Assembly (NCBI GenBank): GCA_001805055.1
Contig: MHDZ01000102.1
Coordinates: 15,648 to 53,535, forward strand
From: Nitrospirae bacterium GWC2_57_13
GTDB lineage: Bacteria; Nitrospirota; UBA9217
Direction of reading: 5' to 3'
DNA: 37,888 bases
The notes under the pieces are model-generated. The model was not told the DNA's origin. It made no database searches and saw only the letters and a program-made list of their open reading frames with translations. Below are positions 26,144 through 36,106 of the stretch, in pieces. The position numbers were made by a program, and so were the translations under genes. Within the stretch, counting starts at the first letter, position 1. Every line of letters starts with the position of its first letter.

Positions 26144-26797
26144 ATGCGTATCATTCTTCTCGGCGCGCCGGGCGCAGGCAAGGGCACGGTGGCCAAACTG
26201 CTGACCAAGCTGGACGGATCGGTCCAGATCTCAACGGGCGACATCCTGCGGGGCGCGGTACAGGCAGGCACCCCCCTCGGCAAGGAAGCAAAGGGCTACA
26301 TGGACAGCGGCGGCCTCGTCCCCGACAAGCTCATCATGGACATCATGGAGCAGCGGCTCCAGGAGAAGGACTGTCAGAAGGGGTTCCTGCTCGACGGCTT
26401 CCCGCGCACCATCCCCCAGGCGGACGAACTGGGCAAACTGCTCACGAAGCTGAACATCAAGCTGGACCTGGTGGCGAACATCGATGTGCCGCGCGATGTG
26501 ATCCTCGACCGGCTGACCACGCGGCGGACCTGCTCCAATACGTCATGCCAGGAGATCTATAACATCAAGAGCAATCCGCCCGCTCCCGGCGACAAGTGCA
26601 AGAAATGCGGCAGCCCCACGATCCAGCGGGCCGACGAGACCATTGAAGCCATCACCAGGCGGCTCGACGTGTACAATGAGAAGACGGCGCCGCTCATCGG
26701 TTACTACGACAAGAAGGGCATGGTGGTCACGATCAAAGAGGCCAGCAGCGACGGCGTCGTGAACGCGATCCAGAAGGGCATCGCGGCGAAGAAGTAA
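26144..26797 (+). CDS. adk: Adenylate kinase, zinc-lid type
   Basis: Adk converts AMP and ATP to two ADP and maintains the adenylate balance in the cytosol. The 217-residue protein is the long-lid type: P-loop GAPGAGKGT (7-15), AMP-binding STGDILR, DGFPRT, and a lid containing four cysteines (Cys130, 135, 152, 155). The spacing C-x4-C instead of the usual C-x2-C in the first pair is slightly unusual but still fits a structural zinc site. The ATG follows GAGGAGGG. It has its own promoter and terminator here and is not in the ribosomal-protein operon where adk often lies (next to secY and infA), which is notable given the SecY paralogue and infA remnant further right. Confidence 0.97.
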   Translation: MRIILLGAPGAGKGTVAKLLTKLDGSVQISTGDILRGAVQAGTPLGKEAKGYMDSGGLVPDKLIMDIMEQRLQEKDCQKGFLLDGFPRTIPQADELGKLLTKLNIKLDLVANIDVPRDVILDRLTTRRTCSNTSCQEIYNIKSNPPAPGDKCKKCGSPTIQRADETIEAITRRLDVYNEKTAPLIGYYDKKGMVVTIKEASSDGVVNAIQKGIAAKK

Positions 26798-28288: not shown

Positions 28289-28894
28289 ATGAGTGAAGCA
28301 GTAACTCCTGATAAGGCCAATCAAGTTTGGGAAGTAGGGAAAATATTGATTTCCGTTTGTTTAGGATACTTCTTGAGCATTGTTAGTAGGATAAGTGCGG
28401 ATAGGAAGAGTATCAGCAATGTGAAGGCAATTATATTTAAAGAATTGTCCGAAAACTATAAAAGAATAAATCCTGTTTTGCCTAAGGACAATAACTTTCA
28501 TCCCGGGTTGATTGATTTGCCTGTGCAATTTAGCCAAACTCTGATTTTCGATGTTTACGAAAAATACTTGGGCCGACTTGCTGAATTGAAAAAGGAGATG
28601 TTAGCGAAGATTTATGATGCATACTATCATTTAGCTGAATTTTCAAAAGGCGCTAAGAATTTTTTGCCCTCGCAGATACAAAATGCTGGACAGGAGCCGA
28701 CAGAAGTTGAACGGCTTAAAATCAGGATTTTCATTCAAAATGCAGTAATCGCTCGAGAAAAAACAGAAGCAGCAATTAAATTATTTCGCGGAGGTGATGC
28801 GCTTTTAAGGAATGAGCTTTCTAATCGCGGCGCGGAATATGAGCGCGTATTCGGTTTGGCAAATCAAGCTGCGGGTTCACTTAAGGGGCAGTAG
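28289..28894 (+). CDS. AT-rich orphan membrane-anchored helical protein
   Basis: The 201-residue product has one N-terminal transmembrane helix (about residues 14-34, ILISVCLGYFLSIVS) and a long, charged, mainly helical remainder (YEKYLGRLAELKKEM, VERLKIRIFIQNAVIAREKTEA). I recognise no family. The base composition is strikingly AT-rich, with many A/T-ending codons, unlike the GC-rich genes on both sides, which indicates recent acquisition. A good ribosome site AAGGAGG (28275-28281) precedes the ATG, supporting that it is real. It has no obvious operon partner, and defence or phage-related roles are possible but not supported by any motif. Confidence 0.75.
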   Translation: MSEAVTPDKANQVWEVGKILISVCLGYFLSIVSRISADRKSISNVKAIIFKELSENYKRINPVLPKDNNFHPGLIDLPVQFSQTLIFDVYEKYLGRLAELKKEMLAKIYDAYYHLAEFSKGAKNFLPSQIQNAGQEPTEVERLKIRIFIQNAVIAREKTEAAIKLFRGGDALLRNELSNRGAEYERVFGLANQAAGSLKGQ

Positions 28895-29080: not shown

Positions 29081-30625
29081 GTGCCTTATTGTCCAAATCC
29101 GGAGTGTCCTTTCAGAAAACGCTTCGGCGAGTCCGCCGAGTACAACCCAGGCGCGGTCACGTGTTCTGATTGCAACACGGCGCTTGTGGCCGATGATCCG
29201 CTCGGGAAGACGGTCAAGCAGAAGAAGGAATTCAGGATGCGCGATCTCTATAAGCGCCTCTTGTGGACGCTGGCTCTTCTGGGAATCTGGAGCATCGTGC
29301 GCCATTTTCCTTTGCCTGGTATAGATAATGATGCCATGATGGGGTTGGGGGGATTAGCGGAGAAGCTAGGCGTTCGTTTTTCTCTATTCTCTTTAGGTCT
29401 CATGCCCTATATCACTGCCTGCGTTATCGTTGAGATCGCCGCGTTGTTTGTACAGCCGCTCAAACAGTGGCGTTTAAGGGGCGGCGAATTGGGCAGGGCG
29501 CGCCTTACACGGGCCGCGATATTTCTGACGGTTGTGATCGGGATCGTCCACGGCCGCGCTCTCGTCTGGCAATTAGGCAACATGGCCGACGGTCACATAC
29601 TTGTTGACAATGGGACGGCATTCAAATCACTCCTCGTCCTGACGCTCGTTGCTGCGATGTTTTTTATCATTTGGATAGCCGGTCAGATATCTATACGGGG
29701 GTGCGGGCACGGCATAAGCTTGATACTGCTGTCCGGTATCGTGGGAGGGATTCCGCACGACTTCGTACAGGCCCTGCGCCTCTACAAGGGAGCGCTATCC
29801 TCCCCTCAATTTCTCATGCCCATGCTGACGCTTGCCGGTGCCATCGTTCTGATCGTATATATGGAGAGAAGCGCTCGGCAGGTCCCGATCCAATATGCCG
29901 ACGGTAGGCAGGCCGCGTTCCCTATTAAACTGACCACTGCCGGAACGCAGCCGGTCCCGTGGGCGTACGGGCTGCTTGCACTTTCCTTCTTCTTCGTCCC
30001 TGTCAATGAAGCTTTCGATCAGGTAAGCAGACCGGTGTCTTCCTGGATCGTCGCTAATCTCCATCAGGGCACGGTTGTCTATACAGCGGCGAGCGCCATC
30101 CTGATCATTATCCTTTACGTTGTTTTTACCGCGCTGTTCTTCAATCCCCGCGAGATGATCGACTATCTCAGGGAAAGAAATGCCTCTGTGGTCCCGGACG
30201 AGACCGGCGGAAAAAGGGATATCTACCGGGGACTGGAAAGCATGGCCTTTATCGGTGGCCTGTATCTGGTCCTCGTGCCCTTGTCGCTTCAGGCTATCTG
30301 GTGGCTGTTGCAGACGGATTTCACCCCGGTCAACGGGATCTCGTTGATTGTAGCAGTCTGCATAACGCTCGATCTGTCCGGTGAAGTGCTTTTCAGATGG
30401 CGATCAGACAGCCTTGTACGCATTGCTGAATTCCACGAACCCTGGAAGGCCGGCTTACTCCGCTCTCTTTTGGAAAAAGAAAAGGTCCCCTGTATTGTAC
30501 GAGGATATTATCACCGGTCTCTTCTATATCTATTCGGCCCCTACATAGAGATGCCCGTTTTTGTCGCAGCAAGCAATGAAAACACTGCCCGGGACGTAAT
30601 GAGAAGATACTTTAATCAGGAGTAA
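29081..30625 (+). CDS. SecY-like translocon paralogue with N-terminal zinc ribbon and C-terminal DUF2007-like domain
   Basis: The 514-residue protein is a fusion. Residues 1-35 form a zinc ribbon (Cys4, Cys9, Cys28, Cys31). Residues ~52-440 follow SecY, the protein-conducting channel of the Sec translocon, in order: FPLPGID after TM1, SLGLMPYITA in TM2, the QPLKQWRLRGGELGRARLT loop, GQISIRGCGHGISLILLSGIVGGIP, YMERSARQVPIQYA, FPIKLTTAGTQPV, and FFNPREMIDYL. The TM1-TM2 segment that carries the plug helix is shorter than in standard SecY. Residues ~444-511 resemble a DUF2007 'signal transducing' domain (LVRIAEFHEPWKAGLLRSLLE... MPVFVAASNE). The GTG start follows a TTGGAGAA site. It is not in a ribosomal operon; an RDD-zinc ribbon gene follows after 10 bases. 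The SecY homology is clear by eye; channel activity is inference. Confidence 0.8.
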   Translation: MPYCPNPECPFRKRFGESAEYNPGAVTCSDCNTALVADDPLGKTVKQKKEFRMRDLYKRLLWTLALLGIWSIVRHFPLPGIDNDAMMGLGGLAEKLGVRFSLFSLGLMPYITACVIVEIAALFVQPLKQWRLRGGELGRARLTRAAIFLTVVIGIVHGRALVWQLGNMADGHILVDNGTAFKSLLVLTLVAAMFFIIWIAGQISIRGCGHGISLILLSGIVGGIPHDFVQALRLYKGALSSPQFLMPMLTLAGAIVLIVYMERSARQVPIQYADGRQAAFPIKLTTAGTQPVPWAYGLLALSFFFVPVNEAFDQVSRPVSSWIVANLHQGTVVYTAASAILIIILYVVFTALFFNPREMIDYLRERNASVVPDETGGKRDIYRGLESMAFIGGLYLVLVPLSLQAIWWLLQTDFTPVNGISLIVAVCITLDLSGEVLFRWRSDSLVRIAEFHEPWKAGLLRSLLEKEKVPCIVRGYYHRSLLYLFGPYIEMPVFVAASNENTARDVMRRYFNQE

Positions 30626-30635
30626 GGACAATATA

Positions 30636-31181
30636 ATGCAATGCCCGAAATGTCATAAGGAAACGTCCTCGGACATCGAGTGCAACTTCTGCGGGATCAT
30701 ATTCGACAAATACCGGGAACGCGTCCAACAGCCGGCTGTCTCCGGCGAGCAGCCCGGCTCGGGGGAATATTGGGAGGTGAAGGTCTCAATCGAGGATGGG
30801 AAATATCCTACCCTGACCCGTCGATATATCGCGACCGCGATTGATGCTGTTTTCGTTCTTTCAGCAATTATGCTGATCTCCTATCTATTCGAGAACGCCG
30901 GCGAGACCGGGGTCAAGGTCCGCGTAGGTCTGATCCTGTCCCTGTTTTTCATATATGAACCGCTGTGCACGAGCCGATTCTGCACGCTTGGGCAGAAGAT
31001 CATGAGAGTGCGGGTCAGGCGATATCCCTCCCTGGAACGCATATCGTTACTCATGGCATACACCCGGATCCTCGTAAAGGCATTGATCGGGATGCTCTCG
31101 TTCTTTACCCTGCCTTTCAGTCAAAAGCGGCGGGCCATTCATGACATGGCCGCACGCTCGATCGTTGTTTTTGTTGATTGA
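30636..31181 (+). CDS. Zinc ribbon-RDD family membrane protein
   Basis: The 181-residue product begins with a zinc ribbon (MQCPKCHKETSSDIECNFCG; Cys3, Cys6, Cys16, Cys19), continues with a polar linker, and then an RDD domain: RRYIATAIDAVFVLSAIML carries the Arg and Asp that name the family, followed by two further hydrophobic segments and SQKRRAIHDMAARSIVV with the final conserved Asp. RDD proteins are small integral membrane proteins, some proposed as ion exchangers. The gene starts 10 bases after the SecY-like gene with a TAAGGA site, so both are almost certainly in one operon. Sharing a cysteine ribbon with its neighbour suggests a joint function at the membrane, which is inference. Confidence 0.88.
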   Translation: MQCPKCHKETSSDIECNFCGIIFDKYRERVQQPAVSGEQPGSGEYWEVKVSIEDGKYPTLTRRYIATAIDAVFVLSAIMLISYLFENAGETGVKVRVGLILSLFFIYEPLCTSRFCTLGQKIMRVRVRRYPSLERISLLMAYTRILVKALIGMLSFFTLPFSQKRRAIHDMAARSIVVFVD

Positions 31182-31737: not shown

Positions 31738-32007
31738 ATGGGTACAAAATTTTCCGAAGATATTGTTCCGCTCAGTGACCTGAAGGTGAACCCCGGCAAG
31801 GTAGTTTCGCATGCACAAGCGACACACCGGCCTATTTTGCTCACGAGCAGGGGCCGCGGGGTTGCCGTGGTTCGATCACTCAAGGATTATGAGGAAGAAA
31901 CCGAAGAACGCGCCTTTATGCAGGGAGTCGTGAAGGGGCTGATGGACCTGGAAGAAGGCCGCGAAATCTCGCTCTCCGAGGCGAAAAAACGCCTTGGCCT
32001 GAAGTGA
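31738..32007 (+). CDS. Phd/YefM-type antitoxin
   Basis: The 89-residue protein has the typical N-terminal DNA-binding fold of Phd/YefM antitoxins (IVPLSDLKVNPGKVVSHAQAT, RPILLTSRGRGVAVVRSLKDYE) and a C-terminal acidic, helical toxin-binding tail (MQGVVKGLMDLEEGREISL). Such antitoxins neutralise the partner toxin and repress their own operon. The stop codon lies 4 bases before the toxin start, the normal layout of type II modules. A strong promoter and an inverted repeat over the ribosome site precede it. Family assignment is confident; the operator is inferred. Confidence 0.9.
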   Translation: MGTKFSEDIVPLSDLKVNPGKVVSHAQATHRPILLTSRGRGVAVVRSLKDYEEETEERAFMQGVVKGLMDLEEGREISLSEAKKRLGLK

Positions 32008-32011
32008 TCCC

Positions 32012-32311
32012 ATGGCTGAACAGGCTCGGATAACGTTTGCCGCGTCAGCGATCAAGGACCTTGAGGACCTGCTGGCCTATTATACGGGTGAAGGTGTACC
32101 TGATGTGGGGAAAAGGCTTACTGCTGAGATCATTGCCAAGGTTGAGCGGCTGGGCGCGCATCCGCTGAGCGGCCGGGTCGTGCCTGAGTTTTCTGTCGAA
32201 CATCTGCGAGAGATCATTTACCCGCCTTTTCGTATCGTTTATCGGCACGATAAAAACAAAGTGCGTATTGTTCGAATCTGGCGAAGTGAAAGACTTCTGA
32301 GACTGCCATGA
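32012..32311 (+). CDS. RelE/ParE-family toxin
   Basis: The 99-residue protein has the RelE/ParE fold marks: an N-terminal strand (ARITFAASAIKDLEDLLAYY), a helical pair, LGAHPLSGRVVPEF, then LREIIYPPFRIVYRHD and VRIVRIWRSERLL strands. The helix LEDLLAYY with a downstream PLSGR and the pattern 'REI-x-x-x-PFRIVYR' favour ParE (gyrase-targeting) over RelE (mRNA-cleaving), but sequence alone does not settle this. It is directly downstream of a Phd/YefM-type antitoxin. An ATGA overlap at its stop opens a short frame (32308-32424) with no recognised identity. Confidence 0.9.
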   Translation: MAEQARITFAASAIKDLEDLLAYYTGEGVPDVGKRLTAEIIAKVERLGAHPLSGRVVPEFSVEHLREIIYPPFRIVYRHDKNKVRIVRIWRSERLLRLP

Positions 32312-33546: not shown

Positions 33547-34129
33547 CAGGTTCAGCGGAACTTCTCGGGGCCAGGTCGAAGGGCGGCAGGGTCAGGTCTA
33601 TACTGTTTGGCGTGCCCAGCGAAGGGTCGCACACACTTGCGGGTGCAAGTCCCGCCATGGCAAAAAGCCAAAGCCATGTAGCTTGGATGGCAGGAGGTGA
33701 GGGAAACGTTGCCTTTTGAAGCCCATCGACAAAGCCCTGTATAGCGGGGTGAGCAAGTTTCCGGGTCGTAACGAAAGTGAACGTAGACGTAGCCTCGTAA
33801 AAGACAAGCTCCATCGGCCGAGCCTATCAAGTAGAGGCGAAGGCAGCATTCTCTTACTGACCCTGGCCGTATCGTAAGAGGACGGTGGCGGGGTATCAGC
33901 GGCGACACGGAAAGACAGGTGTGCGGTAAACTGGGGAAGCCCTCCTCGTCCCTGACGGAAACGGCAGGAGCAAGGTAGGCCCTATAAGTCACACGACGAA
34001 GTGGGCCGACAGGCGAGAGGGTGGCGGACGAGTCCGTAGTAGCGATGATGGAGAGGACAACATAACCTCTTCGGAGCAAAGGGGCTCTGCTGTACTCGTA
34101 TCTTTCAACAAAACGTGAGGCAGGGAAGC

Positions 34130-35431
34130 ATGACAAACACTTCCGTCAATCTGCAGGAGCTGAGGCGAAAGATATACATCAAGGCGAAGGCTGAAAAGCA
34201 CTGGAAGTTCTGGGGGCTCTATTGCCACATCTGCAAACCGGAAGTTCTAAGAGAAGCCTATCGACTGGCAAAAGCCAACGACGGCGCGCCCGGCATCGAT
34301 GGAAAGAGCTTTAAAGACATCGAGGCAGAGGGACGAAAAGAATTTTTGGACAAGATAGGGCAGGAGCTTCACACCCGGACATATCGGCCCATGCCCAATC
34401 GACGGGTAAAAATTCCCAAAGGGAACGGAAAGACCCGCACGCTCGGCATACCGACGATCAAAGACCGGGTGGTCCAAGGAGCGCTGAAACTCATACTCGA
34501 ACCGATATTCGAAGCGGACTTCAAGGATTGCTCATACGGGTACCGCCCCAAGCGGAGCGCCCATCAGGCGGTAGATCGCGTCACCGGTGCGATACTGCGC
34601 GGCCTCACGCGAGTCGTGGACGTAGACCTGAGCGGATATTTCGACAACATACGGCACCACATCCTGCTCGGAAAAGTCGCTCAGCGGGTGCAGGACGACG
34701 ACGTCATGCATCTGCTCAAACTCATCCTTAAAGCGAACGGGAGCAAAGGCGTACCGCAGGGCGGGATCATATCGCCCCTGCTGTCCAACCTCTACCTGAA
34801 CGTCGTGGATGAGATGATGGAGCGGGCACGGGAAACAACCCGGCGCAAAGGCTACGACAACATCGACTTCACCCGAAGCGCGGACGACATGGTCATCCTC
34901 GTGCATGGACACCCCGGCGAAGACTGGCTCCTTGCCGCCGTGCAGAAACGGCTAAAAGAAGAGCTGGACAAGCTGGACGTGCAGATGAACCAGGAGAAAA
35001 CCAAGGTCGTGAACCTCAAGGAAGAAGGCTGTTTCGGCTTCCTCGGGTTCGACTTCCGGCTGAACACCAACCGCAACAGCCAGAGCTATGTGAGCAAAAC
35101 ACCCAAGCAGAAGAAGCGCAAGGAAATCGGAGAGAAAATAAGGGCAGTGCTTAAGGCAAACTGGAGCAAGCCGCTGAACGAGGTAATACAATCAGTCAAC
35201 GCAGTAGTCCGGGGCTGGGTGAATTACTTCCGAATCGGCAACAGCAACGGCACCTTCAAGAAGGTAAAATACGACGTGGAGAAGAAGGTGCGCAAGTTTG
35301 TCATGAAAAGGCAGAAACGAAATGGCTACGGCTGGAAGCGGTGGAGTAGGGAGGATGTCTATCAGCGGTGGGGCTTGTACAATGACTACCAGATACGATA
35401 TTTCCAACCGAAAGCGGCCCCAAGCCGTTAG
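34130..35431 (+). CDS. ltrA: Group II intron-encoded reverse transcriptase/maturase (SADD variant)
   Basis: The protein (433 residues from ATG 34130) helps splice the intron RNA and copies it into DNA. It shows the fingers-palm motifs APGIDG, RTLGIPTIKDRVVQGAL, YGYRPKRSAHQAV, VVDVDLSGYFDNI (first catalytic Asp), GVPQGGIISPLLSNLYL, and then the position of the normal YADD box, which here reads SADD (residues 250-253). After it come NQEKTKVV, CFGFLGFDF and a domain X (maturase) with VVRGWVNYFRIGN. No HNH endonuclease domain follows. The two catalytic aspartates remain, but the conserved aromatic next to them is lost, so activity is uncertain. Some other frames start at GTG 34115. Confidence 0.92.
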   Translation: MTNTSVNLQELRRKIYIKAKAEKHWKFWGLYCHICKPEVLREAYRLAKANDGAPGIDGKSFKDIEAEGRKEFLDKIGQELHTRTYRPMPNRRVKIPKGNGKTRTLGIPTIKDRVVQGALKLILEPIFEADFKDCSYGYRPKRSAHQAVDRVTGAILRGLTRVVDVDLSGYFDNIRHHILLGKVAQRVQDDDVMHLLKLILKANGSKGVPQGGIISPLLSNLYLNVVDEMMERARETTRRKGYDNIDFTRSADDMVILVHGHPGEDWLLAAVQKRLKEELDKLDVQMNQEKTKVVNLKEEGCFGFLGFDFRLNTNRNSQSYVSKTPKQKKRKEIGEKIRAVLKANWSKPLNEVIQSVNAVVRGWVNYFRIGNSNGTFKKVKYDVEKKVRKFVMKRQKRNGYGWKRWSREDVYQRWGLYNDYQIRYFQPKAAPSR

Positions 35432-35462
35432 GTCACATAACCCTTGATATGAAGAGTGCAGG

Positions 35463-35496
35463 AAAGCCGTATGAGGGAAAACCTCACGTACGGTTT
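35463..35496 (+). ncRNA. Group II intron domain V
   Basis: A 34-base hairpin begins with AAAGCCGTA and ends with TACGGTTT, has a GAGG-GAAA-CCTC upper stem with a GNRA loop, and carries the catalytic AGC triad (35465-35467). This is the catalytic core of the intron RNA. Confidence 0.9.
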
Positions 35497-35540
35497 GACG
35501 AGAAGGCGCTGGAGATAGGGTATGGTTGAGATAATGTGAC

Positions 35541-36106
35541 ACTCTCAGAGGAAACGGAGAGAAACGGTGAACACAAACGTCAACCTGCAGCCACTACGCC
35601 AGTGCTTTACTCTACAGTCTGCTCTCATCTGCCGCTCCGGGCTACTATTTTCTTTTTCCCGGCCGTCTCCGTAGCATCTCCTGTCAGGCCCCCTCATGGT
35701 TCTCGTAAGCACCGGACTTTTTTCGAAAACAATCCCGAGGAGGCGAACTATTCATCCCCGCCCCAGACGCGCACTTCCTGCCTCCCCGCCTCATGCCCCC
35801 CTCTGCTTCGTCCTCGTCGTGGACACTGCGTTCCAGAGGTCGTCAGGCTAGATATTTTGCTGGCATGCTTACCCTGCCCCTGCAGTTTATGACCCACTGG
35901 TTCAGAATTACCGGCCTAAAATGAACAGTAAGCAGCCTTCCAGTACGGTGAATGCACCGTAACCTCCTCATTTATTTCGATTCAGCGTACAGGCAAGGCT
36001 TTTGCACAAAAAAGTGCATGGGGAACATGTGGGTTTATCAACGGTTGCTGTACGCTGCGGTGGGCAGGATGAGACGATCCGCATGCGGACGGCAGAGGGA
36101 GGGGCG
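35541..36106. other. Intergenic region between the intron and a small exported protein
   Basis: No convincing gene is present in these ~565 bases; one open frame of 118 codons (35536-35892) runs out of the intron end, is Pro/Ser-rich and shows no domain. The right part holds the nested inverted repeat at 35983-36057. Confidence 0.45.
35983..36057. repeat. Nested inverted repeats (75-base structured element)
   Basis: CAGCGTACAG (35983-35992) and CTGTACGCTG (36048-36057) are perfect inverted ends enclosing a second hairpin TGCAC-AAAAAA-GTGCA (36003-36018). The element lies about 50 bases before the next gene and could be a structured leader RNA, a protein-binding site or a tiny mobile relic. 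Confidence 0.6.

Follow-up and report, generated by a model that had tools for sequence, protein, structure and literature searches.

A SecY relative of Nitrospirota with a zinc ribbon and a DUF2007 domain, probably a repurposed translocon core

The window, a 37,888-nucleotide stretch of contig MHDZ01000102.1 from Nitrospirae bacterium GWC2_57_13, carries a gene for a SecY-derived protein whose core is flanked by a four-cysteine ribbon and a DUF2007 domain, followed by a gene for an RDD-family membrane protein (Table 1). The SecY paralogue is encoded by an uninterrupted frame of 514 codons with a GTG start and a GGAG sequence 8 bases 5′ of it. The first-pass annotation, made from the letters of the DNA, had described a 514-residue SecY-like protein with a ribbon in front and a DUF2007-like domain behind, and all three parts were recovered by our analysis. 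The profile search that it had proposed matched both SecY and DUF2007: the Pfam SecY profile PF00344 aligned with residues 101-432 over its positions 1-305 of 306 (161 bits, 5.8e-47), whereas the DUF2007 match (25.3 bits, 1.7e-5) fell just below the cut-off of 25.7 that two orthologs exceeded (29.1 and 30.8 bits). Solved SecYs aligned end to end with residues 51 to 432 (E 1.9e-38), and ten hydrophobic segments are kept in the hydropathy profile. The cysteines of the N-terminal ribbon are C4, C9, C28 and C31. Structure prediction from two sequences reached a pLDDT of 42.6, too low for the model to inform on the lateral gate.

Table 1. Features of the SecY paralogue and of the gene that follows it, with positions in the window.
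Feature	Position	Strand	Evidence
SecY-derived paralogue, ribbon + SecY core + DUF2007, 514 aa	29081..30625	+	Profile matches; orthologs of the same layout
N-terminal four-cysteine ribbon, C-X4-C-X18-C-X2-C, residues 1-45	29081..29215	+	Module recurs in orthologs, a DUF898 protein and a soluble DUF2007 protein
SecY core, ten predicted transmembrane segments, residues 51-436	29231..30388	+	PF00344; alignment with solved SecYs; hydropathy
TM1-TM2 segment with shortened plug	29321..29380	+	Alignment with 51 canonical SecYs
C4 loop, nine residues shorter than canonical	29882..29923	+	Alignment with 51 canonical SecYs
C5 loop without PGIRPG motif (E. coli R357 lost)	30167..30220	+	Alignment with 51 canonical SecYs
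DUF2007 domain with GYYHRSLLYxFGPYIE segment, residues 447-509	30419..30607	+	Pfam; conservation in orthologs
RDD-family membrane protein with its own N-terminal ribbon, 181 codons	30636..31181	+	PF06271, 5e-14

Orthologs were sought in all 14 available genomes of the window's class, in all 231 available genomes of the class of Nitrospirota bin746 (public record CP070669, hereafter G151) and in 396 genomes drawn from the phylum. The G151 ortholog (512 aa, 38% identity, E 2.5e-99) and a second one, in genome G459 (514 aa), display the full three-part layout including the ribbon, which rules out that a frame error fused separate genes in the window. The third ortholog, in genome G453, is a contig-edge fragment composed of the C-terminal half of SecY and a DUF2007 domain (30.8 bits). 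The three orthologs share about 37% identity with the window's protein, and the four genomes represent four families of Nitrospirota; with four carriers among the genomes searched in this phylum, the subfamily is rare and its distribution patchy. Phylogenetic analysis together with 51 canonical SecYs groups the four paralogues in a single clade (SH-aLRT 100) at the end of a long branch; the long branches also make it uncertain where this clade attaches to the canonical SecYs. These sequence comparisons indicate that the paralogues form a real, rare SecY subfamily in Nitrospirota. Scanning genome contigs with two narrow peptide patterns matched bin746 only, a result that says little about other phyla. 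A scan of viral contigs with the paralogue alignment revealed no virus-borne relatives, and a second scan, run with canonical SecY, yielded just two matches, both short. The gene neighbourhood of the paralogue differs in every genome; upstream of the G459 gene (L085:495-7843) lies a set judged by eye to be sulfur-metabolism-like, with heterodisulfide-reductase-like, sulfide-quinone-reductase-like and DsrE/Tus-like proteins. Rarity, patchiness (4 genomes), long branches and fast evolution could also describe a decaying secY duplicate fused to junk. We consider this very improbable, given that three divergent genomes keep the frame open over 512-514 codons, that the fusion partners are the same in each and that residues specific to the subfamily, such as N185H, are shared.

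The paralogues were aligned with the SecY of E. coli K-12 and 50 other canonical SecYs (51 in total), including a divergent plasmid-borne one. The C5 arginine equivalent to E. coli R357 is present in 51/51 canonical SecYs and in 0/4 paralogues, which have P, S, P and P at this position. The C4 segment counts 17 residues, with 2-3 lysines and arginines, versus 25-26 residues with 4-7 in canonical SecYs. The plug segment (TM2a) has 8 residues in the window's paralogue, and 8, 10 and 12 in the three complete paralogues, versus 15 in 51/51 canonical SecYs, so the first-pass remark on a shortened plug region was correct. Each of the three changes is found wherever a paralogue sequence spans the site, versus 0/51 canonical SecYs. 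The plasmid SecY of Streptomyces sp. NBC_00019 (L097:2483-3796) is strongly diverged yet keeps the plug, C4 and C5. Out of 158 columns that are invariant among canonical SecYs, the paralogues keep 66 to 73, including the TM2 MPYI and the TM5 glycine motif; in each of the three complete paralogues, GHGIS stands in place of the GNGIS motif.

The SecA site includes C4 and C5 (PMC8082313), and the two loops form the ribosome-binding region (PMC8675477); loop 6/7 has likewise been named for ribosome binding (PMC6028853), and SecY tolerates plug deletions (PMC8675477). Given these published roles, the loss of the C5 arginine and of nine C4 residues means that the parts by which the ribosome and SecA hold SecY are gone. 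We thus infer from the alignment that the paralogue docks to neither of them while retaining its membrane core.

The assembly to which the window belongs (3.3 Mb, 96% complete) carries a canonical secY (400 bits) on another contig, within the spc operon between rplO and map, both of which were named from a reading of their sequences. A canonical secY of about 400 bits is present in each of the four paralogue-bearing genomes, which rules out that the paralogue is a divergent sole translocon. In the window's genome and in G151, a single secE and a single secA were found; the paralogue is therefore an additional SecY without a dedicated SecE or SecA. These findings agree with the early description of a gene lying outside a ribosomal-protein operon, with neither secE nor accessory Sec genes close by, and supply the separate canonical secY that had been proposed for search. 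The paralogue has an adk gene 2.3 kb upstream (positions 26144-26797 of the window), whereas map directly follows the canonical secY. We rejected the idea that this adk marks a remnant of an spc operon, as the stretches read beside the orthologs show no adk.

A second SecY that keeps its whole core could be an accessory, SecY2-like translocon exporting a special substrate with SecA. Weak matches to SecY2 models point in this direction, but they lie far under the cut-offs (67 versus 353 bits for NF009082, 48 versus 249.6 for TIGR02920), the SecA-contact loops C4 and C5 are reduced, and no SecA2, Asp or substrate genes lie nearby. Since both models score below cut-off and no SecA2 accompanies the single SecA of either genome, identity with SecY2 was rejected, and a functionally SecY2-like role appears improbable to us.

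The RDD gene starts 10 bases 3′ of the paralogue in the same orientation, with AAGGA before its ATG. The first-pass annotation had pictured a next gene that again begins with a zinc ribbon and has an RDD domain; the gap, the domain and the presence of a ribbon all stand, but the ribbon is of another type (C-X2-C-X9-C-X2-C, versus C-X4-C-X18-C-X2-C in the paralogue). The distance between the genes suggests co-transcription in this genome, no more. A two-gene system in which the RDD protein is a functional partner within the window's lineage would be compatible with the short gap, the separate ribosome-binding site, the ribbon that heads both proteins and a GC content below that of the neighbours (0.54 for the paralogue and 0.53 for the RDD gene, versus about 0.60-0.63 in surrounding genes). 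Against it, the ribbons differ, an RDD ortholog in genome G009 (75% identity) stands alone with no SecY paralogue adjoining, and no RDD gene adjoins the other SecY orthologs. The adjacency is thus not conserved in other genomes, the proposal that the two genes make up one system is not upheld, and we regard even a lineage-specific partnership as quite improbable.

The lower GC content, together with a toxin-antitoxin pair and a group II intron nearby, fits acquisition of both genes by transfer. The type II toxin-antitoxin pair occupies positions 31738-32311 (Phd/YefM antitoxin, then ParE toxin). The intron spans 33637-35615, with Rfam domains D1-D4 at 33637-33776, a reverse transcriptase/maturase ORF at 34115-35431 and the 3′ domain at 35462-35615. 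On the other side, positions 28289-28894, with a GC content of 0.395 versus about 0.60 around them, encode a 201-aa protein that matches no Pfam family and has a single membrane segment at its N-terminus; this gene was likely acquired recently. A scan of the locus for promoters and terminators returned nothing informative, and PADLOC gave no match that would make the paralogue a defence gene.

Relatives of the two added domains shed light on the origin of the fusion. In G151 (L095:7207-7770) and genome G333 (L096:2532-3095), we observed a soluble 187-aa protein in which a ribbon of the paralogue's type is immediately followed by DUF2007 and which has a further zinc-ribbon-like part at its C-terminus. 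A profile of this protein matches the two ends of the G151 paralogue in successive halves: its positions 1-47 align with the N-terminal ribbon (E 1.3e-6) and its positions 48-126 with the C-terminal DUF2007 (E 7.8e-6). The SecY core thus appears to sit within a pre-existing ribbon-DUF2007 module. The simplest history suggested by these matches is that a SecY core came to lie between the two parts of such a module, of which the 187-aa protein likely represents the parent; a fusion that later shed its SecY part is the less likely alternative. SecY has its two termini on the cytosolic side and, with the ten hydrophobic segments kept, ribbon and DUF2007 could still meet there. The same ribbon type heads a DUF898 membrane protein in genome G002 and, in genome G013, a truncated RDD-like protein without a Pfam RDD match; occurring on several membrane proteins, the ribbon appears as a cytosolic tag on them. 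The G002 protein (L023:2176-4595) begins with two ribbons, of which the first is of the paralogue's type, and is followed by an M48 peptidase with DUF7092. Searching solved structures with the DUF2007 pair found nothing.

The loss of the docking loops and the conservation of the architecture in orthologs make a repurposed translocon-type protein plausible. This partly supports the earlier suggestion of a repurposed channel or insertase, with the RDD protein as a component left unsupported. Our favoured reading, to which we give somewhat less than an even chance, is that of a lateral-gate protein independent of SecA and the ribosome (insertase, membrane chaperone or channel) under the control of ribbon and DUF2007. 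Such a protein would work beside the normal translocon, driven by neither SecA nor the ribosome, and may use the shared SecE; it would serve particular hydrophobic segments as an ungated insertase or as a membrane chaperone, or else form a small channel, while the cytosolic ribbon-DUF2007 module would recruit clients or sense a signal. We hold as doubtful the more specific proposal of a SecY-fold insertase or channel that lacks plug, ribosome docking and SecA and whose gating falls to a zinc-ribbon/DUF2007 sensor in the cytosol.

Of the six-residue pore ring, the positions in TM2 and TM5 are hydrophobic, whereas position 278 is P/M/D and position 408 is V/K/K/I instead of isoleucine, in a part where the TM7 alignment is unsure. 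These changes, two of them to lysine, speak for an ungated or non-conducting core within an insecure alignment; with the same caveat on alignment, the departures at 278 and 408 may mean that there is no conducting pore, which would count against our favoured reading. The main rival is a pseudo-translocon, that is, a transport-free regulator whose SecY fold would bind SecE, YidC or hydrophobic segments and would report on them or titrate them through ribbon and DUF2007. The lost docking motifs, the altered pore ring and the sharing of a single SecE are consistent with it, as is the GYYHR...FGPYIE segment of DUF2007, the most conserved stretch of the paralogue and more so than the channel part. 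In G151, moreover, the gene is convergent to yidC, one gene away. This yidC neighbourhood was found once only, however, and the pore-lining TM2 MPYI and TM5 G-x-GHGIS motifs are kept in 3/3 complete paralogues; we judge a transport-free role unlikely, if worth serious attention.

On structural grounds, a proto-SecY that was plugless and ungated has been put forward (PMC8675477). A naturally occurring SecY core that lacks docking parts and a full plug, as these alignments suggest the paralogue to be, would let one ask which parts insertion alone needs. The ribbon and DUF2007 modules are also pointed to as candidate cytosolic controls of several Nitrospirota membrane proteins. If a SecY-fold insertase or channel is indeed gated by ribbon and DUF2007, it would represent a second bacterial role for the translocon fold, under independent regulation.

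SecY is the universal export channel, and we know of no described SecY paralogue besides the accessory SecY2, nor of any stripped of its docking loops. The open literature, most subscription journals being outside our search, yielded no paper on a SecY with a ribbon or DUF2007. The paralogue shares with SecY and Sec61 alpha (PF00344, TIGR00967) the ten-helix core, the MPYI and G-x-G-x-GIS motifs and alignment from end to end, but it has no full plug, no basic C4 loop and no C5 PGIRPG, and carries the ribbon and DUF2007 in addition. Unlike canonical SecY, it lies outside a ribosomal operon and scores below the cut-off of the TIGR00967 equivalog model (153.8 versus 253.6 bits). With the accessory SecY2 (TIGR02920, NF009082) it has in common that it is a second SecY in its genome, and it differs in its scores far under both cut-offs, the lack of SecA2/Asp genes and the extra soluble domains. 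YidC/Oxa1 offers a possible mechanistic analogy, membrane insertion without plug or SecA, with no membership of that family by sequence. The DUF2007 (PF09413) ribbon proteins, such as the 187-aa protein of G151 and G333, share with it the ribbon type, the DUF2007 domain and the order of the two; in these soluble proteins the two domains are adjacent, whereas in the paralogue a SecY core lies between them, probably a translocon core that, without its docking parts, has been turned to another job.
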